Assembly (NCBI GenBank): GCA_002887195.1
Contig: PJAB01002013.1
Coordinates: forward strand, 1 to 10,980
DNA: 10,980 nucleotides
From: Chrysochromulina parva
Lineage: Eukaryota > Haptophyta > Prymnesiales > Chrysochromulinaceae
Reading direction: 5' to 3'
Each line of letters opens with the position of its first letter. The stretch's first letter is position 1. Below, piece after piece: positions 1 through 9,814 of the stretch. The notes under the pieces were generated by a model. The model saw nothing but the letters and a program-made list of their open reading frames with translations. It had not been told where the DNA came from and searched no databases. The position numbers and the translations under genes are program-made.

Positions 1-240
1 TGCTGCGGCGGCGGCGGCTGCGGCGGCGGCTGCTGCGGCGGCTGCGGCGGCGGCTGCGGCGGTGGCGGCGGCGGTGGCGGCGGCGGCTGCGGTGGCGGCT
101 GCTGCGGCGGCTGCGGCTGCTGCGGCTTCTGCGGCTGTGACTGCAGCTGCTGTTGCTGCTGCAGCTGCTGCTCCTCGACCTCCAGCCGCCGGATCTCACC
201 GAAATTCTGCCGCCACACCTGCTGCTGCTGCTGCTGCTGG
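1..240 (-). repeat. CAG/CCG trinucleotide-rich tract coding Gln and Pro
   Basis: On the minus strand the triplets CAG and CCG alternate, with a few CCA and CAA, giving a Gln/Pro low-complexity tail and one pure run of seven CAG codons (219-239). The plus-strand reading gives poly-Ala or poly-Leu, but only the minus frame joins a long, non-repetitive protein. The tract reaches the left edge, so its full length is not seen. Confidence 0.85.
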
Positions 241-2065: not shown

Positions 2066-4411
2066 ATGCGGGCCCTCTGGCTGCTCGCGCCGCTCACAGC
2101 TCCGCTAGCCGCTGCCCGCTCGCCGCTCGACGGTCAGCGCATCGAGTTGCGCCACGTGGACCCGTGCGTCCGACTGCTCAACGCGACCGGCACCATCGGA
2201 TGCGCCACGCGCAGCAGCGGCTCGCTCGCGCCGCTGCACGTCCTGCGCAGCGACGCGGACCTGGCGGCGCTGCTGCGGGCGCCGCCCGAGGGCGGGATGG
2301 CCGTTGCGCTGGCCGCTCCGCTCTTCCACTTGACGACGCTCCGCGCGCTCGCCACCACGTTGGGCGCCAAGCTCGATGGCGTGCTCGTGCTGGACGCCAG
2401 GGCCATGCCGGCGCAGGTGCCGTCGCCCGACCTGGCCGTGCCCTTGGGCACCGAGACGCAGCCTCGGCATCCGTGGAACGCGGCGGGCACCGGCTTCTCT
2501 CACGAGCGCTTCCCCTTCGCCATCGTGCTCCTCGGCCTGGTCGAGAGTGCCGCGGTGCTCATGCACGGCGTCCATGCCGGCGCCAGTGTGGGCAGCGGCA
2601 ACCGACCACTCGTGGAGTTGCGCTACCCGATGAGCGCGCGCGGTGACGCTCCCAGCTGCCTCGCAAGCGAGACCTGCTTGCCCCTCGGCGGCCAGAGTGT
2701 CTGGGGCTCCTTGGAGCCGCGCACGGCGCCGGACACTGAACTGCTGCGCTTGGGGAAGCCTGTTGTGGCTCTCACGGCCTCGCTCGACGCGACGGGATTC
2801 TTCCACGAGACGGCGCCCGGCGCCAACGCCGCCGTCGCCTCACTCGTGGCCGTCCTCGCCGCCGTCGATGCCATCGTCTCGGACCCCGCGCTCGCGTCGC
2901 AGCTGGGCTCGCTGCCCAACACGGCCCTCTTCTTCCTCTTCACCGGGGAGGCGTGGGGCGAGCTCGGCTCCCGACGGCTGCTGACCGACGTGCGCAACTT
3001 CACCTGCGCGACGCCGCACGCGCCGCCGCCGCCGCCCAGCGCCCCCTCGGGTGCGCCGTCACAGCGCCCGCCGCTGCCGGCGCCAAGTTCTTGCCAGGTG
3101 CGTCCTCCCTCGAAGTGCTCATCAACCTAATGGCCACTCATGGCCTCTCATACGCCTTGATTGCCTCCCTCATCAGGTGCGTCCTCCCTCGAAGTGCTCA
3201 TCGCCCTAATGGCCACTCATGGCCTCTCATTCGCCTTGATTGCCTCCCTCATCAGGCTCCATTCAAACGCGACTTGAGGTTCCTCGAGCTGCGCGAGCGG
3301 CGGCTCACGACGCTAGTGCACGTAGGGCCGATCGGGGCACGCGAAGCTGGCGAGGAGCTCTTTATTCACACGTCGGCCGCCGCCACGAACGGCGCGACCA
3401 ACGGCGCGGCGGAGGCGTTACGAGCGGCGGCGTCGGCGGCTCCCGTGCTGTCGGCGCCTTCTCTGCAGGTGCGCGATGCGACGGGCGCTCATGGGCTACC
3501 CTCGCGCATGCAAGTGCTCAGCACGGCGCCCTCCGCTCCCCCCACAGGTGCGCGATGCGACGGGCGCTCGTGGGCTACCGCCCGGGGCGGCGCGCAGTTT
3601 CGTCGATCCGAAGCTCCAGCTGCCCAACACGGCGCTCCCCTCGGTCGCCACCCTTGCGGACTTTGAGGACGCCTACCATGGAGGTGGCCGTTACGGTTCC
3701 CACTTCGATACCATCGACGGCCTCAACGTGTCCCTCGTGTGCGCCGCGGCCACGGTCGCGGGACGTGCGTGGTGGAGCTTGGCGGGTGGCACTGGCACCC
3801 TGCACGCGAACTGCTCACTCGTGGAGGAGTTGCTCCACTGCTTGCTGCCTCCGGCGCGCCGTGGCGGCCGTGGCGGCGGCAGCGAAGGCGGCGAGGCCGG
3901 TAGCGGTGAGCCGGATGCGGCCGACGGCCACGGCGGCGGCGAGGGCGGCGAGGTGCCGTCGTGCGCGCTCGCAACGGCGCTCGGAGTGGAAGGCGACCTG
4001 ACGACGCACTACGCGGGCGTCTACATGGCGGCACCGGGCTCCGTCCGCGTGTCCGCGACGGCGCGATTCGCCTCCGCCTTTCTAGAGCAGCGACTGACAA
4101 GTGCCTGCGAGGCGACCGGGCTGGCGCCAACTGCCTCCTGCGAGCCTTCCATTCTCATGCACGACGCGTACCCAGCGGGCATCGAACGCGACCCAAGCAC
4201 CGGCCGTTGGCGGGTCACCGATCCCGACGAGCCCCTCTGGACCGAGTCCAACTGGCCCAACGAGATGTACGCCTTCCTGTACCCGCACGGGGCCCCTTCC
4301 ACAGTCGAAGGGCTCGCCCTCCTCGGCGTGGGCGCGCTGGGTGCGCTGCTCACCTACGTGGCCACGCACGTCAGCCGTTATCAGTACAAGAATGCGTACA
4401 AGCGGCTGTGA
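2066..4411 (+). CDS. NCSTN: Nicastrin, gamma-secretase subunit (3 exons)
   Basis: Exons are 2066-3097, 3256-3468 and 3548-4411, all joined in phase 0, giving about 702 residues; nicastrins are usually about 700. Nicastrin is the large glycoprotein subunit of gamma-secretase, which cleaves membrane proteins within the bilayer. Residues 1-17 form a signal peptide. The motif CVRLLNATGTIGC (34-46) matches the N-terminal nicastrin signature. A stretch around TGFFHETAPGANAAVAS and then FFLFTGEAWGELGS matches the peptidase-like domain, with Glu295 aligning with the Glu of the animal GETFDYIGS motif. A C-terminal membrane helix (about 669-690) precedes a short basic tail ending in AYKRL, and ESNWPNEMYAFLYP lies before it. 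A Gly/Glu-rich insert (about 516-553) is unusual. The first ATG of the frame is 2066; an upstream GTG at 2057 is not needed. The exon joins were made by hand from phase and homology. Confidence 0.93.
3098..3255 (+). repeat. Nicastrin intron 1: a 79-bp intron unit duplicated in tandem
   Basis: Two 79-bp units, 3098-3176 and 3177-3255, differ at only three positions by my count. Each begins GTGCGTCC and ends CCTCCCTCATCAG, so each is by itself a plausible GT-AG intron. Splicing out both (158 nt) keeps frame into exon 2. Removing only one would insert 79 nt and shift the frame. Confidence 0.85.
3469..3547 (+). other. Nicastrin intron 2, starting with a copy of the next exon
   Basis: This is a phase 0 GT-AG intron of 79 nt. 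Its first 32 nt match the first 32 nt of exon 3 (3548-3579) with one difference. The remaining 47 nt end in a tail built on GCATGCAAGTGCTCA, CGGCGCCC and a C-rich stretch before CACAG. The same tail closes the introns at 9153-9218 and 9480-9629. Confidence 0.8.
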
Positions 4412-5317
4412 TGGGCGCACTGAGCGGCACGCGGGCGCCTGCTGCAGCTCTCGCCGCGGCCTCAGCATCGTTGGTGTATAGGCGACTGTGACCAAATCAG
4501 TCGTGTGTACGTCGCCAGATATGACAAACGTACCTCGAACGCGACACACCCGTCGCCTACGGTATCACTATATTGGGTTCACTACCGTAGCCCGATTGGT
4601 CACAGTTGGTCACAAACTCACAGTGAGAGCCTGAGCCTCCTCATGAGCCTCCTCCGCACCAGCCCCAGGGGCGGGGGAGCCGGCATTCGAGCTGGAAAGT
4701 TAGGGCGCGTGCGCGCCGTTCACAACCACCGTTCACACTTCGGACCAGTATTAACAGGCTCCGTTCACACTCGCGTCGCGGCGTGTGCCCGGTTTTTCCC
4801 CTTGTGCGTCGCGGCGGGCTGGCGGGCGATCGCCGCGCGCGCGCCACCGCACCCCCTTCGCACACGGAATCGATCGAATCCGCTCAGGTGCTTTCTTCCA
4901 CGGTGCCCGCGGGCACTTCTGCATCTCAGGGAACACACGCCCTTGCCCCTACACGTCTCCCTTCGTCTCACGAGTGTGGATTCTTTTCGCGTGCCTTTCC
5001 GCAGTCGCGCGCCGACGACCAGTCCGCCTCTTTCCTCTCCGCCCCCGCGCGTTTCACCGCCACATGACTGCCCAACCCTGAGACCCCGAGCTGGGCTGCC
5101 TCTCTCAAGGGCATGCAACTCTCCGTTCGCGATGAGCTTCGGAGCCACTCGCCGGCCGCACGCCATTCCCCTCATCCTCGCGGCACGCTGTTGGCTGTTG
5201 CTTGTCTGCGTCGAGACCCTTGACGTGCCCTTCGAGCTTGCAGCCGTGTGTGGCCCCATATCTCCATGTTGCCGAATACACTTGCCGCCAAAGGCTCTCT
5301 TCTCTCTTGTTCGTAGG
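4412..5317. promoter_or_regulatory. Non-coding stretch: nicastrin 3' flank and WD40 upstream region
   Basis: About 900 bases with no coding frame I can support. Three TTCACA boxes lie at 4719-4724, 4732-4737 and 4764-4769, and the looser forms GGTCACAG, GGTCACAA and CTCACAG at 4598-4623. From about 4840 to 5070 the plus strand is C- and T-rich. The frame of the WD40 gene is open back to about 4505 and has an ATG at 5131, so an upstream coding start or a 5' exon is possible. The pyrimidine tract just before TTCGTAG at 5311-5316 resembles a 3' splice site, which would suit an intron in the leader. Confidence 0.5.
4557..4590. repeat. Short inverted repeat, 8-bp arms
   Basis: CTACGGTA at 4557-4564 is the exact reverse complement of TACCGTAG at 4583-4590, with an 18-base AT-richer spacer. 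It lies about 150 bases past the nicastrin stop codon. It could be a 3' UTR hairpin or a protein-binding site. An 8-bp pair can arise by chance, so the role is open. Confidence 0.4.
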
Positions 5318-6772
5318 ATGATCGCGAAGCTCATCAACTGTGTAGCGGAGAAGACCAACGCCCACAGCGACACCATCCGGTCGGTGGCGTTTTCCCCGGA
5401 TGGGACCAAGATCGTGTCCGGATCGGACGACGGGACGATCAAGGTCTGGGATTTGGGTGCGCTGCGATCCCTCAAAATCGCCCCTCCTTGGCCAAAACCG
5501 AACCCTGTTGGCTTGTCTGGCAGTCAAACTGGAGCAGCTCAGCGAGAAGACGAACGCTCACAGCAACCAGATCACATCGGTCGCGTTTTCCCCGGACGGG
5601 ACCAAGATTGTATCGGGATCGTGGGACAGGACGATCAAAGTCTGGGATTCGGGTGCGCCAGAGCCCTCAAATCGCCCCTCCTTGGCCAAAACTGATGCCT
5701 GCTGGCTTGTCTGGCAGACGGGCTGGAGCTGTTGAGCGAGAAGACGAACGCGCACAGCAGCTACGTCATGTCGGTGGCGTTTTCCCCGGACGGGACCAAG
5801 ATTGTGTCCGGATCGGCTGAAGGGACGATCGAAGTTTGGGATTCGGGTGCGCGCGAGCTCAAGATCACACCCCTCCTTGGCCAAAACTGATGCCTGTTGG
5901 CTTGTCTGGCAGGCGCGCTGGGGCTGCTGAGCGAGAAGACGAACGCCCGAAGCACCCCAGTCTACTCGGTGGCGTTTTCCCCGGACGGGACCAAGATTGT
6001 ATCGGGATCGTGGGACAGGACGATCGAAGTCTGGGATTCGGGTGCGCCGAGCCCTCAAGATCGCCCCTCCTTGGCCAAAACTGATGCCTTCTGGCTTGTC
6101 TGGCAGGCGCGCTGGGGCTGCTGAGCGAGAAGACGAACGCCCACAGCGACACAGTCTACTCGGTCGCGTTTTCCCCGGACGGGACCAAGATTGCCTCGGG
6201 ATCGGCTGACAATACGATCAAAGTCTGGGATTCGGGTGTGCCGGAGCCCTCAAAATCGCCCCTCCTTGGCCAAAACTGACGCCTGTACTGGCTTGTCCGG
6301 CAGATGCGCTGGGACTGTTGAGCGAGAAGCCGAACGCGCACAGCCTAAACATCAACTCGGTGGCGTTTTCCCCGGATGGCACCAAGATCGTGTCCGGATC
6401 GGGCGACAAGACGATCAAAGTCTGGGATTCGGGTGCGCTGAGCCCTCAAAATCGTCCCTCCTTGGCCAAAACTGACGCCTGCTGGCTTGTCTGGCAGGCA
6501 AACTGGAGATGCTGAGCGAGAAGAGGGACGCCCACACCGAATGCATCCTGTCGGTCGCGTTTTCCCCGGACGGGACCAAGATTGTGTCAGGATCGTATGA
6601 CAAGACGATCAAAGTCTGGGATATGGTCAATTGGTCTCGCAATGATCATTTGATGTTCAATAGCACCACCCAGCGATACGTCTTGCTGCTGCTGTGGCTG
6701 AACAAATACAGCATGAAGTTTCCTGATGATGTGCTTGATCTGCTCATCGAAGCTTGCTTGCAAAGCAGGTGA
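5318..6772 (+). CDS. Seven-bladed WD40 propeller protein, one blade per exon
   Basis: Seven exons join in phase 1: 5318-5456, 5524-5652, 5718-5846, 5913-6041, 6107-6235, 6304-6432 and 6498-6772. Exons 2-6 are each exactly 129 nt (43 residues). Every blade has the form [30 protein letters not shown], the WD40 consensus with GS and WD, and seven copies make one closed beta-propeller. WD40 propellers are protein-binding scaffolds, so the partner cannot be deduced. After blade 7 comes a unique tail of about 49 residues with a hydrophobic Leu-rich helix, ending at TGA 6770-6772. The start at 5318 is the nearest ATG before blade 1; an in-frame ATG at 5131 is an alternative. The end is also uncertain, because AAAGCAG followed by GTGAGA at 6762-6774 would make a good splice donor. 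Confidence 0.85.
5457..6497 (+). repeat. Six near-identical 65-68 nt introns of the WD40 gene
   Basis: The introns are 5457-5523, 5653-5717, 5847-5912, 6042-6106, 6236-6303 and 6433-6497. Each follows GGGATTCGG (GGGATTTGG for the first), starts GTGCG or GTGTG and ends TTGTCTGGCAG or TTGTCCGGCAG. They share a core CTCCTTGGCCAAAACTGA. CTGAT or CTGAC within it lies about 25 nt before the AG and fits a branch-site consensus (intron 1 has a variant). Exon and intron together form a repeat unit of about 194-197 bp, so the gene grew by duplicating exon-intron pairs. Confidence 0.85.
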
Positions 6773-6927
6773 GAGGTGGGGTGACGGCGGCCGGGTGTGT
6801 CGCATATCGGATCTGATCCACAGTGTGAGTGGTCGGCGCGCACGCGCGCGCCGTGAACGTTTGATTTGTTTTAGCGCCTGTTCACAGCCGTTTCACACAG
6901 GCCTGGAGGTGCTCGATTTTTCCACTA
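6773..6927 (+). promoter_or_regulatory. Promoter or leader region of the EF-hand gene
   Basis: This 155-bp gap carries TTCACA at 6881-6886 and 6892-6897, 30-50 bases before the ATG at 6928, and an A/T-rich patch TTTGATTTGTTTTAG at 6860-6874. No coding frame is supported. The boxes sit at a distance suitable for a core promoter or transcription start, but no transcript data are available. Confidence 0.45.
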
Positions 6928-9814
6928 ATGCCGCAAACTAAGCAAAACCCAACCGCCCACGTGACCGCCACCAAGACGGTCCGCTTTTCAGAAGAGGCGG
7001 TGGTCACAGGTCGAGGACGAAAGGGAGCGTGGGTGCCACCGCCTCGAGCTCCCACGCAAGCTGGGGTGCCCGCAGTAGCTCCTGCTGGTGCTGCCGCACA
7101 CATGCCGACGCCTGCGCCGGCCGCTGCAGCCGCCGTCGCCTTCACGCAGCAGGACCCGATCGAAGCAGCGGCCGCCCGCTGCGACGACTGGTTGCGCGCC
7201 CACGACCTGCAGCCGTCGGCCGACAGCACCGGGCGCCGGTTACGCTTGCATCATGGTTGCACCGACATCGAGGCCGTGCGCAGTGCGGCGATGAACGCAG
7301 TCAGCCGTGCGCTCGCGCTGGCTGCGGATGGCTTCGTCAGCCCGGAGGAGCTCTGCGACGAAACGGTCGACGAGGCAGCGTGCCTCGCCAATGACGCACG
7401 CTGGGACGAGGCGCACGCCGCGCTCGAGCAGCTGCGCGACTTGGGTGTGGGCGAGGAGCATCTCCGCGCCCTAAGCACCCTCACCAGTTGGGAGGAGCTG
7501 CGGGGGGAGCTGCTACCCATGCTGCACGAGATGATCTTTTACGCGACGGTCGGCGCGACCGAAGCCGCGCGGCGCAAGGCGCCGTCCGCGAGCTCGTATG
7601 GCGCCACGCTCCGTTGGCCCGTGGCGCTCGGGACGGCGCTTAGAGTTTCGTCGGGCCCCTGTGCGCTCGGGACGGCGCTTGGAGTTTCGTCGGGCCCCTG
7701 TGCGCTCGGGACGGCGCTTGGAGTTTCGTCGGGCCCCTGCGCGGTCGTTGTCGTGCCGCGGCTGGAGGAGGACGTGGCGTGGGTGCATCGGCTGCCCGCG
7801 GGCGTCGACTTCCACATCATGCAGCGCTCGGGCGTGCTGCAGCCCCAATTTGCACCGGAGAAGCAGACAGCGATGGAGGCGGCGGGCGCGGCGGCGGAGG
7901 CTGGTGCATCACCGCCGAGCGCATCGCTCGCGCTCGTGGCTTTTCTGCAGCAAGCGGCCGAGAATGAGGACTTGATCGAGGCGCTGCGCGATCCCGATTT
8001 CGCGCGCCAAGCGGATCTCGTTGTCACGCACGACAGGGCGGGTACGAATGGCCTCACGGATGGACCTCTGATGGCCATCTGATGGCCCTCTGATGACCTC
8101 AGATGGCCCTCTGATGGCCCTCTGATGACCCTCTGGTGGCCCTCTGATAGCCCTCTGGTGGCCCTCTGATGGCCCTCTGATGGTCCTCTGATGGACCTCT
8201 GATGGACCTCTGATGGACCTCTGATGGGCCTCTGATGGCCCTCTGATGGGCCTCTGATGGCCCTCTGATTGGCCTGATTGGCCTATGGTTCACCTATGAT
8301 TGACCTCTGATTGCGGTCGCTGAGCTGATCTGGCAGGTGATGGGCCTCTGATTGCTTCCCTCATTGCATGCAGGTGATGGGCCTCTAATTGCTTCCCTCA
8401 TTGCATGCAGGTGATGGGCCTACAGTACAGAGCGCCATTGTGTCACGGCTGCGCAAGCACGCACAGCGTGTGATGGACTTGTTACGCGAATGGGATACCG
8501 ACCGGTCAGGCACGATCTCGAAAGGCGAGCTCGCTGCTTGCCCTTTGATGGTGCTTTGAGTACGTACGATTGCCTCGTGTAACCATTTTAATATTGACTC
8601 GAATGCCAACCTCGGATTGCCTCCCTCATTGCATGCAGGTGCGTTACCTGCGCTCGGCGGCAGCTCCCCTGATGAGCACTAATGAGCCTCAGATTGCCTC
8701 CCTCATTGCATGCAGGTGAGCTCTACCGCGCCCTGTGCCACCTCGAGCTCGAGGTGACGGAGGAGGAGAGCGATCTACTCTTCGCGTCGTGGGACGTCTC
8801 GGGCGACGGCGCGATCGGATACACGGAGCTACTCGCAGCTCTCCACTCCGGCCGACGGTGATTGCCTCTGATAATGGCCTCTGATGGACTCTGATGACCT
8901 CTGATGACCCCTGATGGCTTCTGATGACCTCTGATGACCTCTGATGGCTTCTGATGACCTCCCTCATTAGGTACGATCGGTTCGTGCGACGGCGTGCGCG
9001 CCCGCCGTTGCCGCCGCTCGTCCTCTGCGCCCCGGCCGATCCGGCGAGCTGGAGCACGAGATTCCTTGATGACGTGGCTCTCATGGCCGGTGCGGCGGCC
9101 ATTGGACGGCCGTTGCCTCCCTTTGTGCCGTTGGGCGGCGCGCCGCGCTCGGGTGAGCGCCTTGTGCTCTGTGACGCGAGCATGCATGTGCTCACCACGG
9201 CGCCTCGCCTCCCCACAGGTGAGCGCCTTGTGCTCTGTGACGCGAGCGGTGCGCCGCTCCGCCTCTCTGAGCCGAGTGGGTTACCATGCCCACGACGACG
9301 CCCGGCGCTCCTTCCGATAGGGCCCCTCTGGCGAGCGGCGTTCGGTGGAAACGCCCACGACGGCGCCCAACACGGCGCCCACGACGGCGCCACCGGCCTT
9401 GGTGGTCCTCGAGCGACGGGCGCCGTCTCGGGCGCTGGCTCGCCGCCGCCGCTGCCTCTCTGGCTATGCTACACGCCGGGTGCGTGCTTCGGCGCTGCCG
9501 CCGCCTTGCATGCCCCGCCAGCATGCATGTGCTCACTACAACGCCGGGTGCGTGCTTCGGCGCTGCCGCCGCCTTGCATGCCCCGCCAGCATGCATGTGC
9601 TCACTACACGGCGCCCGGCCTCCCCACAGGTGCGTGTTTCGGCGTGCCGCGTGAGGGGGTGCTGCGCGCGCGGGGGGACGAGTCGGCCGCAGCGTACTGG
9701 AGGCGTTTGCGAGGCGTGCTGGCGGCGCCGAGGACGTACGACGTCGAGGCGAAGGGCGAGGCGTGGTCGAGATTGTGGCGCTATGTGTTCATGGGCGCTA
9801 TGGTGGGCGCGTGA
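6928..9814 (+). CDS. EF-hand calcium-binding protein with RVxF-like motif (6 exons)
   Basis: Exons 6928-8041, 8411-8524, 8716-8857, 8971-9152, 9219-9479 and 9630-9814 join in phases 1,1,2,1,1 and give 665 residues ending at TGA 9812-9814. Near the N-terminus, KTVRFSE fits the RVxF motif that docks protein phosphatase 1 (inference). An Ala/Pro-rich region and a helical region follow, then three 13-residue repeats at about 233-271. EF-hand loop 1 is DTDRSGTISKGE (400-411) and loop 2 is DVSGDGAIGYTE (436-447); both keep Asp1, the ligand at positions 3 and 5, Gly6, Ile8 and Glu12. The loops start 36 residues apart, exactly as in a calmodulin lobe, which supports the joins. The C-terminal 200 residues, Pro/Gly/Ala-rich at first, resemble nothing I know. 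It is a calcium sensor by structure; its partner is unknown. The exon 2 donor is GC rather than GT. Confidence 0.8.
7624..7740 (+). repeat. Three tandem 39-bp coding repeats
   Basis: Units at 7624-7662, 7663-7701 and 7702-7740 are nearly identical (two differences by eye, one giving Arg for Gly in unit 1, the other at the last base of unit 3). At 39 bp the repeat keeps frame and encodes ALGTALGVSSGPC three times. It is a recent in-frame expansion inside exon 1 of the EF-hand gene. Confidence 0.9.
8042..8410 (+). repeat. EF-hand gene intron 1: CTGATGGCC minisatellite plus duplicated acceptors
   Basis: This is a phase 1 GT-AG intron of 369 nt. About 8063-8310 is a degenerate array of a 10-11 bp unit close to CCTCTGATGGC, with about 17 copies of CTGAT between 8066 and 8280. 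CTGAT also fits a branch-site motif. The 3' end holds two 37-bp units, 8337-8373 and 8374-8410, each running from GTGATGGGCCT to CCCTCATTGCATGCAG. Each opens with the first 11 bases of the next exon, so three possible acceptors occur, at 8336, 8373 and 8410. Only 8410 gives the frame leading into EF-hand 1. Confidence 0.8.
8525..8715 (+). other. EF-hand gene intron 2, non-canonical GC-AG
   Basis: The 5' site is AAAG then GCGAGC, a GC donor; the 3' site is TTGCATGCAG at 8715. Splicing here turns the codon for Gly410 into GGT and restores the calmodulin-like order from loop 1 into the following helix and loop 2. Using the genomic frame instead stops after about 7 more codons. The intron opens GCGAGCTC and the next exon opens GTGAGCTC, one mismatch in eight. 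A second copy of the 3' tail ends at 8638, so the intron may be composite. Confidence 0.7.
8858..8970 (+). repeat. EF-hand gene intron 3, CTGATGACC/CTGATGGCC array
   Basis: This is a phase 2 GT-AG intron of 113 nt. After GTGATTGC it consists of about ten copies of a 10-bp unit with CTGAT, ending CCTCCCTCATTAG. The 3' tail is the same family as in introns 1 and 2 and in nicastrin intron 1. Confidence 0.8.
9153..9218 (+). other. EF-hand gene intron 4, starting with a copy of exon 5
   Basis: This is a phase 1 GT-AG intron of 66 nt. Its first 29 nt are identical to the first 29 nt of the next exon (9219-9247). The last 37 nt are the tail with ATGCATGTGCTCA, CGGCGCC and CCTCCCCACAG. The length is a multiple of three and contains no stop in the gene's frame, so retention would add 22 residues without breaking the protein. 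It could therefore also be read as a coding duplication. Confidence 0.65.
9480..9629 (+). other. EF-hand gene intron 5, two tandem units, starting with a copy of exon 6
   Basis: This is a phase 1 GT-AG intron of 150 nt. It contains two units, 9480-9547 and 9548-9629, that share about 60 bases. Each opens GTGCGTGCTTCGGCGCTGCC, a close copy of the start of exon 6 (GTGCGTGTTTCGGCGTGCC), and contains GCATGCATGTGCTCACTACA. Only the second has the final C-rich stretch and CACAG. Like intron 4 it is a multiple of three with no stop in frame, so retention stays open. Confidence 0.65.

Follow-up and report, generated by a model that had tools for sequence, protein, structure and literature searches.

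How could an intron come to open with a copy of the exon that follows it? Intron gain in genomes is an old open question, and introners have mostly been explained as DNA transposons generating short duplications. A sequence-only reading of the window analysed here (the whole stretch of 10,980 nt, contig C2013 of the draft assembly) had reported that several of its introns begin with such copies, and had ascribed them to introner-like elements inserted next to an exonic GT. The analysis drew on a draft assembly of 45.07 Mb in 2,199 contigs, in which 58 matches to chlorophyll-binding proteins were detected, indicating that the organism is apparently a phototroph. Copies of the following exon at intron starts were confirmed both in the window and throughout this genome.

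The introns in question reside in two genes, in which seven introns could be read in total (Table 1). The spliced reading of the EF-hand gene is unbroken and its product presents EF-hand Pfam matches, with an EF-hand pair spanning the 8525-8715 junction. The reading of the nicastrin-like gene is continuous when intron 3469-3547 is spliced, and the proteins of eight relatives (P0002-P0009; 12 found) continue across this site. A further protein (P0001), with 92% identity in the alignment, continues past the position of the first intron and ends in a stop shortly beyond the 3469 site; known as a protein alone, it is compatible with either the presence or the absence of the introns in its gene.

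Table 1. Coordinates of the two genes, their introns and the parts of the introns with exon copies.
Feature	Position	Strand	Details
Nicastrin-like gene	2066..4411	+	exons 2066-3097, 3256-3468, 3548-4411; Pfam Ncstrn_small and Nicastrin; 12 homologues
Intron of two 79-nt tandem units (96% alike), tail CTCATCAG	3098..3255	+	first nicastrin-like intron; without next-exon copy at its start
Class A introner-like intron, 79 nt, nicastrin-like gene	3469..3547	+	frame kept solely on removal
Next-exon copy, 32 nt, providing 5' splice site GTGCGC	3469..3500	+	31/32 identical to 3548-3579
Element part: core GCATGCAAGTGCTCAGCACGGCGCC, then pyrimidines and the 3' splice site CAG	3501..3547	+	30-nt direct repeat with 9175-9204
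Original 32 nt opening the next exon	3548..3579	+	spliced reading and copy comparison
EF-hand gene	6928..9813	+	exons 6928-8041, 8411-8524, 8716-8857, 8971-9152, 9219-9479, 9630-9813
369-nt intron, CTGATGGCC-type repeats, tail CTCATTGCATGCAG, two 37-nt units at its end	8042..8410	+	
GC-AG intron, tail CTCATTGCATGCAG, opening with 8-nt next-exon copy (one mismatch)	8525..8715	+	removal restores EF-hand
Intron, tail CTCATTAG, without exon copy (negative case)	8858..8970	+	spliced reading of EF-hand gene
Class A intron, 66 nt, EF-hand gene	9153..9218	+	spliced reading
Exon copy in intron 9153-9218	9153-9181	+	29/29 identical to 9219-9247
Element part of intron 9153-9218	9182-9218	+	spliced reading and copy comparison
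Dimeric intron, 150 nt: two 68-nt units, each with exon copy and core, followed by pyrimidines and CAG	9480..9629	+	

The copies reported at 3469 (32 nt, one mismatch) and 9153 (29 nt, none) were recovered as described, as was the shorter one at 8525 (GCGAGCTC against GTGAGCTC at 8716). At 9480 the exon copy stood (GTGCGTGCTTCGGCG against GTGCGTGTTTCGGCG at 9630, 15 nt with one mismatch, or about 21 nt by eye with a 1-nt gap), and the intron there is a dimer with identical units at 9473-9540 and 9541-9608. The 11-nt copies at 8337 and 8374 are present, but in our reading they do not mark two introns: both belong to units (8337-8373 and 8374-8410) within intron 8042-8410, and each unit opens with the first 11 nt of the next exon (from 8411). 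No next-exon copy was found at the start of two of the seven window introns, 3098-3255 and 8858-8970.

The window harbors several other repeated structures. The first exon of the EF-hand gene contains three near-identical, in-frame tandem copies of a 39-nt unit (7624-7747; 13 residues, ALGTAL.VSSGPC). A WD40-repeat gene at 5318-6771 presents an exon and a short intron (about 65-68 nt, ending in CTTGTCTGGCAG) that recur jointly about every 195 nt in seven blade-like copies, and its intron seems to have been multiplied together with the exon. A tract of GCTGCGGCGG-type repeats occupies the left end of the window (1-130), inside a minus-strand gene. At the right end of the contig (10860-10980), an exact repeat at a spacing of 63 nt involves 58 nt, made up of the last 23 nt of a kinase exon and an intron start containing CTGATGGCC filler; it may represent either a further case of a copied exon end, with other filler, or an effect of the assembly end.

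About 2,000 genome matches were obtained for the tail common to introns 3469-3547, 9153-9218 and 9480-9629, which bears out their description as introner-like. Its core (GCATGCANGTGCTCANNANNNCGCC) returned 1,038 forward and 1,038 reverse matches over the whole genome at up to three mismatches, an odd equality that may reflect a counting quirk, and a reversed-pattern control returned 11 and 12. Core, tail and GT together gave 153 and 156 matches with zero mismatches, and the control gave 0. Many similar introns are therefore found in unrelated genes of one genome, the pattern by which introners are recognized. Searches of virus and prokaryote collections, with one pattern each, yielded 0 exact matches.

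The comparison of intron starts with exon starts against shuffled pairs, proposed in the sequence-only reading, revealed a strong genome-wide excess of identity. An exon-start copy scoring at least 10 was located upstream in 65 of the 91 element copies having a 3' splice site, against about 0.5% of shuffled pairs. Without anchoring to the exon start, and with nine clusters close to the ends of loci excluded, a flanking repeat scoring at least 13 accompanied 127 of the 186 core clusters, against 19 of 552 shuffled pairs; 33 of the 186 contain more than one core. Because local repeats are common in this genome, the background was also sampled at random points of long loci: a direct repeat with this score flanks 110 of 153 single cores, being absent at the other 43, compared with 156 of 1,523 random points, and with 47 of 1,088 random points lacking CTGATG/CTGATT. 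The copies range from 13 nt, the detection floor, to 49 nt, those scoring below 13 being uncounted. Loci were picked from listed matches to a core, tail or 5'-extension pattern, and copies truncated within these patterns are missed.

Two mirror-image arrangements, assigned by simple rules, were distinguished among the insertions. In class A (63 rows; introns of 57-93 nt, median 78; copies of 13-49 nt), the upstream exon is followed by GT and a copy of the next exon, a spacer, the core, pyrimidines and CAG, and then by the next exon itself. The exonic target resembles a donor site, with GT followed by A or G and then mostly CGC, and preceded by G in 49 of the 63. In 58 of these 63 introns the unanchored repeat begins 0-4 nt upstream of the point where the exon opens, an offset partly explained by the fact that the bases preceding the target GT are often AG. 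The proposal that the duplicated exon start supplies the 5' splice site and the element tail the AG hence describes class A well, but is incomplete. In class B (20 rows, or 18 after setting aside L030 and L047 as in-frame; copies of 13-40 nt in the cluster set and up to 41 nt overall), an exon ending in CAG is followed by GTACGTTGATTGCCACTGATGACCTGCCTTGCATGCAAGT.. cut at varying points and by a copy of the upstream exon end that terminates in AG, so that here the 5' splice site comes with the element and the AG with the exon copy. Loci chosen by the 5' extension showed a flanking repeat scoring at least 12 in 23 of 40 cases, including an identical 40-nt copy (L123); since this extension has 103 and 89 genome matches, most core matches lack it. 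Both splice sites lie within the copy in only 4 of 186 clusters (class C). A further 17 rows (Aq) with pyrimidine-AG but without an exact unit-length GT-AG pair are mixed, comprising class A insertions with an indel and cases that are not introns by the present reading (for example L024, L063 and L134). The insert between the copies has a median of about 50 nt. The origin of the stretch separating exon copy and core was sought with 17 spacers combined into one query, too weak a search, which matched only the place of one of these spacers itself.

To assess removal of these insertions as introns, we called the reading phase over 99 nt per side with a codon model whose training set consisted solely of the window's nicastrin-like gene and first EF-hand exon. 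Coding phases join after deletion of exactly one repeat unit in 71 of 81 introns, one of which is the window's 3469 intron, whose flanks are in the training set and which is hence not independent. Of the 55 introns whose length is not divisible by three, 47 are consistent with splicing, 3 with retention and 5 with the third frame. On this sequence-level evidence, the repeat-flanked insertions are very probably spliced. The codon-phase test replaced a stop-codon test that proved uninformative in a GC-rich genome (of 83, 78 were open when spliced, 63 when retained and 75 in antisense). A dinucleotide control on the raw repeats was likewise discarded: it was distorted by WD40 units and tandem arrays, and dinucleotide pairs other than GT-AG scored just as high.

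Insertions without a unit-length GT-AG pair formed a strict list of 14 rows, 9 with a unit divisible by three. After dropping two L008 rows (one stretch on both strands), L093 (an intron seen from the other strand) and L160 (cores in tandem), the fraction was 7 of 10, or 9 of 12 upon adding L030 and L047, which had been called class B through a chance GT-AG and have units of 42 and 66. Coding phase is unclear for several of these rows, and antisense scores best in L134 and L055. The pattern is weak and only suggestive of in-frame survival of unspliced insertions in exons.

Among 101 copy pairs without gaps, 40 are identical and 61 differ by mismatches. The identical pairs suggest recent activity, and the readability of the copies means that the pre-insertion exon, the insert and both junctions are legible without an outgroup. 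The mismatched pairs bear in turn on the possibility that the copies are artefacts of assembly. The assembly is a draft in 2,199 contigs, and the exact duplication with 63-nt spacing at the right end of the window is what such an artefact might look like, but neither the mismatches, nor the restoration of phase upon removal of one unit, nor the continuation of relatives' proteins across one site would be anticipated from it, and we regard this explanation as hardly credible. The suggestion that falling copy lengths form an age series is not supported, since length does not drop with divergence: the Spearman correlation is +0.18 for classes A and Aq (n=75, p=0.13) and +0.21 for all classes (n=101, p=0.03), with a sign opposite to that of an age series. 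A search with joined flanks for empty, intron-less sites of 11 introns detected none in the organism's own genome.

Long exon copies are not restricted to a single family. The tail ..CTCATTGCATGCAG, present in window introns 8042-8410 and 8525-8715, has 117 and 110 genome matches (control 0), and exon copies accompany it in 11 of 19 cases against 0 of 328 shuffled pairs. For the tail ..CTCATCAG the figures are 9 of 23 and 8 of 428, some of these rows being tandem intron units; the rows for these tails include several from one locus (L195, L197, L198, L001). The presence of exon copies in two further tail families indicates that the long copy belongs to the manner of insertion and not to one element. 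The inserts are introner-like, as the sequence-only reading proposed, and copy length is not the signature of one transposon. In addition, a 35-nt copy of an upstream exon ending in CAGG was observed at L002:2026-2143, where a TGATGACTTC-type filler unrelated to the other inserts shows the class B layout.

The ends of the inserts were analysed for the features that DNA transposons would leave. No terminal inverted run of at least 6 was found in 80, 20 and 8 inserts or in 81 whole introns, the means being equal to those of shuffled ends. Insert ends vary within the family, and a near-constant duplication of 3-9 bp was not observed, copies shorter than 13 nt lying below the detection threshold. 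A MITE-like introner whose transposase makes unusually long duplications would account for the copy number, the recent subfamilies and the precise restoration of the exon, in which the present introns resemble published introners (PMC9860276), and some 2,000 uses of one sequence are more readily imagined as the work of a mobile element than as repair templates taken up by chance. The lack of terminal inverted repeats, the inconstant ends, the range of 13-49 nt within one family and the exon copies with other tails nevertheless make such a transposon quite unlikely.

Variable duplication lengths, the 5' truncation of class A inserts and 5' junction microhomology would fit target-primed retrotransposition, in which a copy of an intron or pre-mRNA is reverse transcribed at a nicked exon, yielding truncated inserts. 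Five RVT_1 matches were identified in the genome, although just 7 candidates were scored for this domain and the best E-value was 3.8e-7. A constant 3' end combined with 5' truncation was not observed, class B inserts being truncated at the 3' end. Furthermore, in two pairs of introns (C373/C1402 and C18/C1928) the likeness passes the intron border, involving sequence that would be absent from an excised intron but present in pre-mRNA. We consider this route unlikely, if not negligibly so.

The junctions themselves point to microhomology. At truncated 3' junctions, the identity run through the junction has a mean of 4.4 against a null of 1.0 (14 usable among the 30 rows of classes B and N), and 6 of these 14 present runs of at least 5 nt where 0.35 are expected; one case (L118) is probably element-element similarity and another (L109) is weak, leaving n=12 without both. 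The signal is modest at class A 5' junctions, with a mean of 1.5 against 0.7 (72 of 80 usable) and runs of at least 5 nt in 3 of 72 against 0.43 expected. Copying between genes is suggested by a 26-mer (TTGGCGTGTGGAGCGCCAAGGCGCAG) found at three genome places at up to 3 mismatches: an apparent C373 exon, its copy in the C373 intron and an intron of C1402. The C373 and C1402 introns align over 128 columns, and their otherwise dissimilar exons have 11 nt in common immediately upstream of the intron (CCAAGGCGCAG). From these alignments, C373 may be the donor of the C1402 intron, or both may derive from a common third source. In the C18 and C1928 pair, the shared intron sequence starts at GGCGCTC, which the C1928 exon contains as well, and runs up to GAGAGC in the exon that follows. 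A general homology to donor exons at junctions was tested and is not supported: shared prefixes of at least 7 nt are not commoner in close pairs (p=0.19; 790 close among 15,296 pairs, 176 copies), and the excess in mean shared exon prefix (2.07 against 1.54 permuted, p=0.0015) is confined to splice-site-like first bases.

Direct repeats of exon bases across the intron and junction microhomology, modest at the class A 5' side, are the features looked for in break repair. We lean, with little more than even confidence, towards a reading in which these introner-like introns each arose through microhomology-guided repair that copied part of an intron already present in the genome into an exon, with 13-49 nt of exon being duplicated. 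At the sequence level it draws on the repeats, the mirror classes, the phase across the join, the variable ends without inverted repeats, the microhomology and the one intron shared by C373 and C1402. Weighing against it are the 43 single cores lacking a repeat, the two window introns devoid of a copy, the 11 introns for which no empty site turned up, the modest signal at class A 5' junctions, the lack of a general donor-exon homology and the sheer number of uses of one sequence. The process would start, for instance, with a staggered break or paired nicks in an exon that are then filled in, an existing intron serving as the template for repair or template switching, and the exon bases would end up duplicated on either side of the insert. 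The gene would stay readable thanks to this duplication, since insert and exon copy would contribute one splice site each, such that removal of exactly one repeat unit would restore the exon. The event would be one of repair or template switching and not a transposase or reverse-transcriptase reaction, the introns would be spliced in the cell and the gains would be recent. Breaks with protruding ends are described, in a study on mouse cells, as giving rise to tandem duplications (PMC5730883), and in the present genome such repair may take up introns as filler.

A two-step history would instead place a tandem duplication of the exon first, with intron-family sequence being placed between the copies afterwards through gene conversion or slippage. 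This genome is rich in tandem duplications, and the four class C clusters have both splice sites in the copy. Such a history does not predict that the repeat border should coincide with the exon start as it does in 58 of 63 class A introns, and the same core lies between the copies in 110 of 110 repeat-bearing single cores, albeit by selection; we deem it very unlikely.

If the repair reading is correct, a long duplication would be a general way to instant spliceability, from either side, and introns could spread without a dedicated enzyme. A broader proposal, for which we see somewhat less than an even chance, is that introns multiply here without transposons, break repair with intron templates and long exon duplications generating thousands of introns with any intron as potential filler. 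Each insertion would then be rendered harmless by the duplication, because the splice pair restores the exon from either side.

The provision of one splice site by a duplication is already known in both directions, in different species. Published introner target duplications are given as 3-9 bp (PMC9860276), and the copies reported here lie far above that range, in agreement with the initial impression that they are unusually long. According to the same source, introners of Symbiodinium microadriaticum likewise combine a 3' splice site from the element with a 5' site from the target duplication and restore the coding sequence, but they carry 4-bp duplications and terminal inverted repeats, whereas the present copies reach 49 nt, lack inverted repeats and include the mirror layout in the same family. 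Known introners with the class B layout, also without terminal inverted repeats, are described with 4-bp duplications, compared with 13-41 nt here. The introner elements of Amoebophrya (PMC7789003) resemble those studied here in being repeated introns with direct repeats at their borders and no clear transposase, and differ in their 3-5 nt direct repeats, 8-20 nt inverted repeats and non-canonical splice sites. Among the matches listed in the introner literature, no account of long exon copies was recognized from titles and opening lines of abstracts. Copies of up to 49 nt, the coexistence of both arrangements in one family and the independence from the tail family were not found in the papers searched and partly read (among them PMC12768974) and are apparently new. 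Two other systems offer further parallels. Recently gained introns in Daphnia are attributed to staggered breaks and bear repeats of 4-12 bp (PMC4202315), in contrast to the longer repeats and the shared insert family of about 2,000 matches observed here. In the tandem genomic duplication of AGGT-containing exon segments (reviewed in PMC3443670), the duplicated exon also provides splice signals and the exon is restored; there, duplicated exon bordered by AGGT on either side makes up the intron, whereas in the present genome the copies are separated by a shared, foreign insert that supplies one of the two splice sites.
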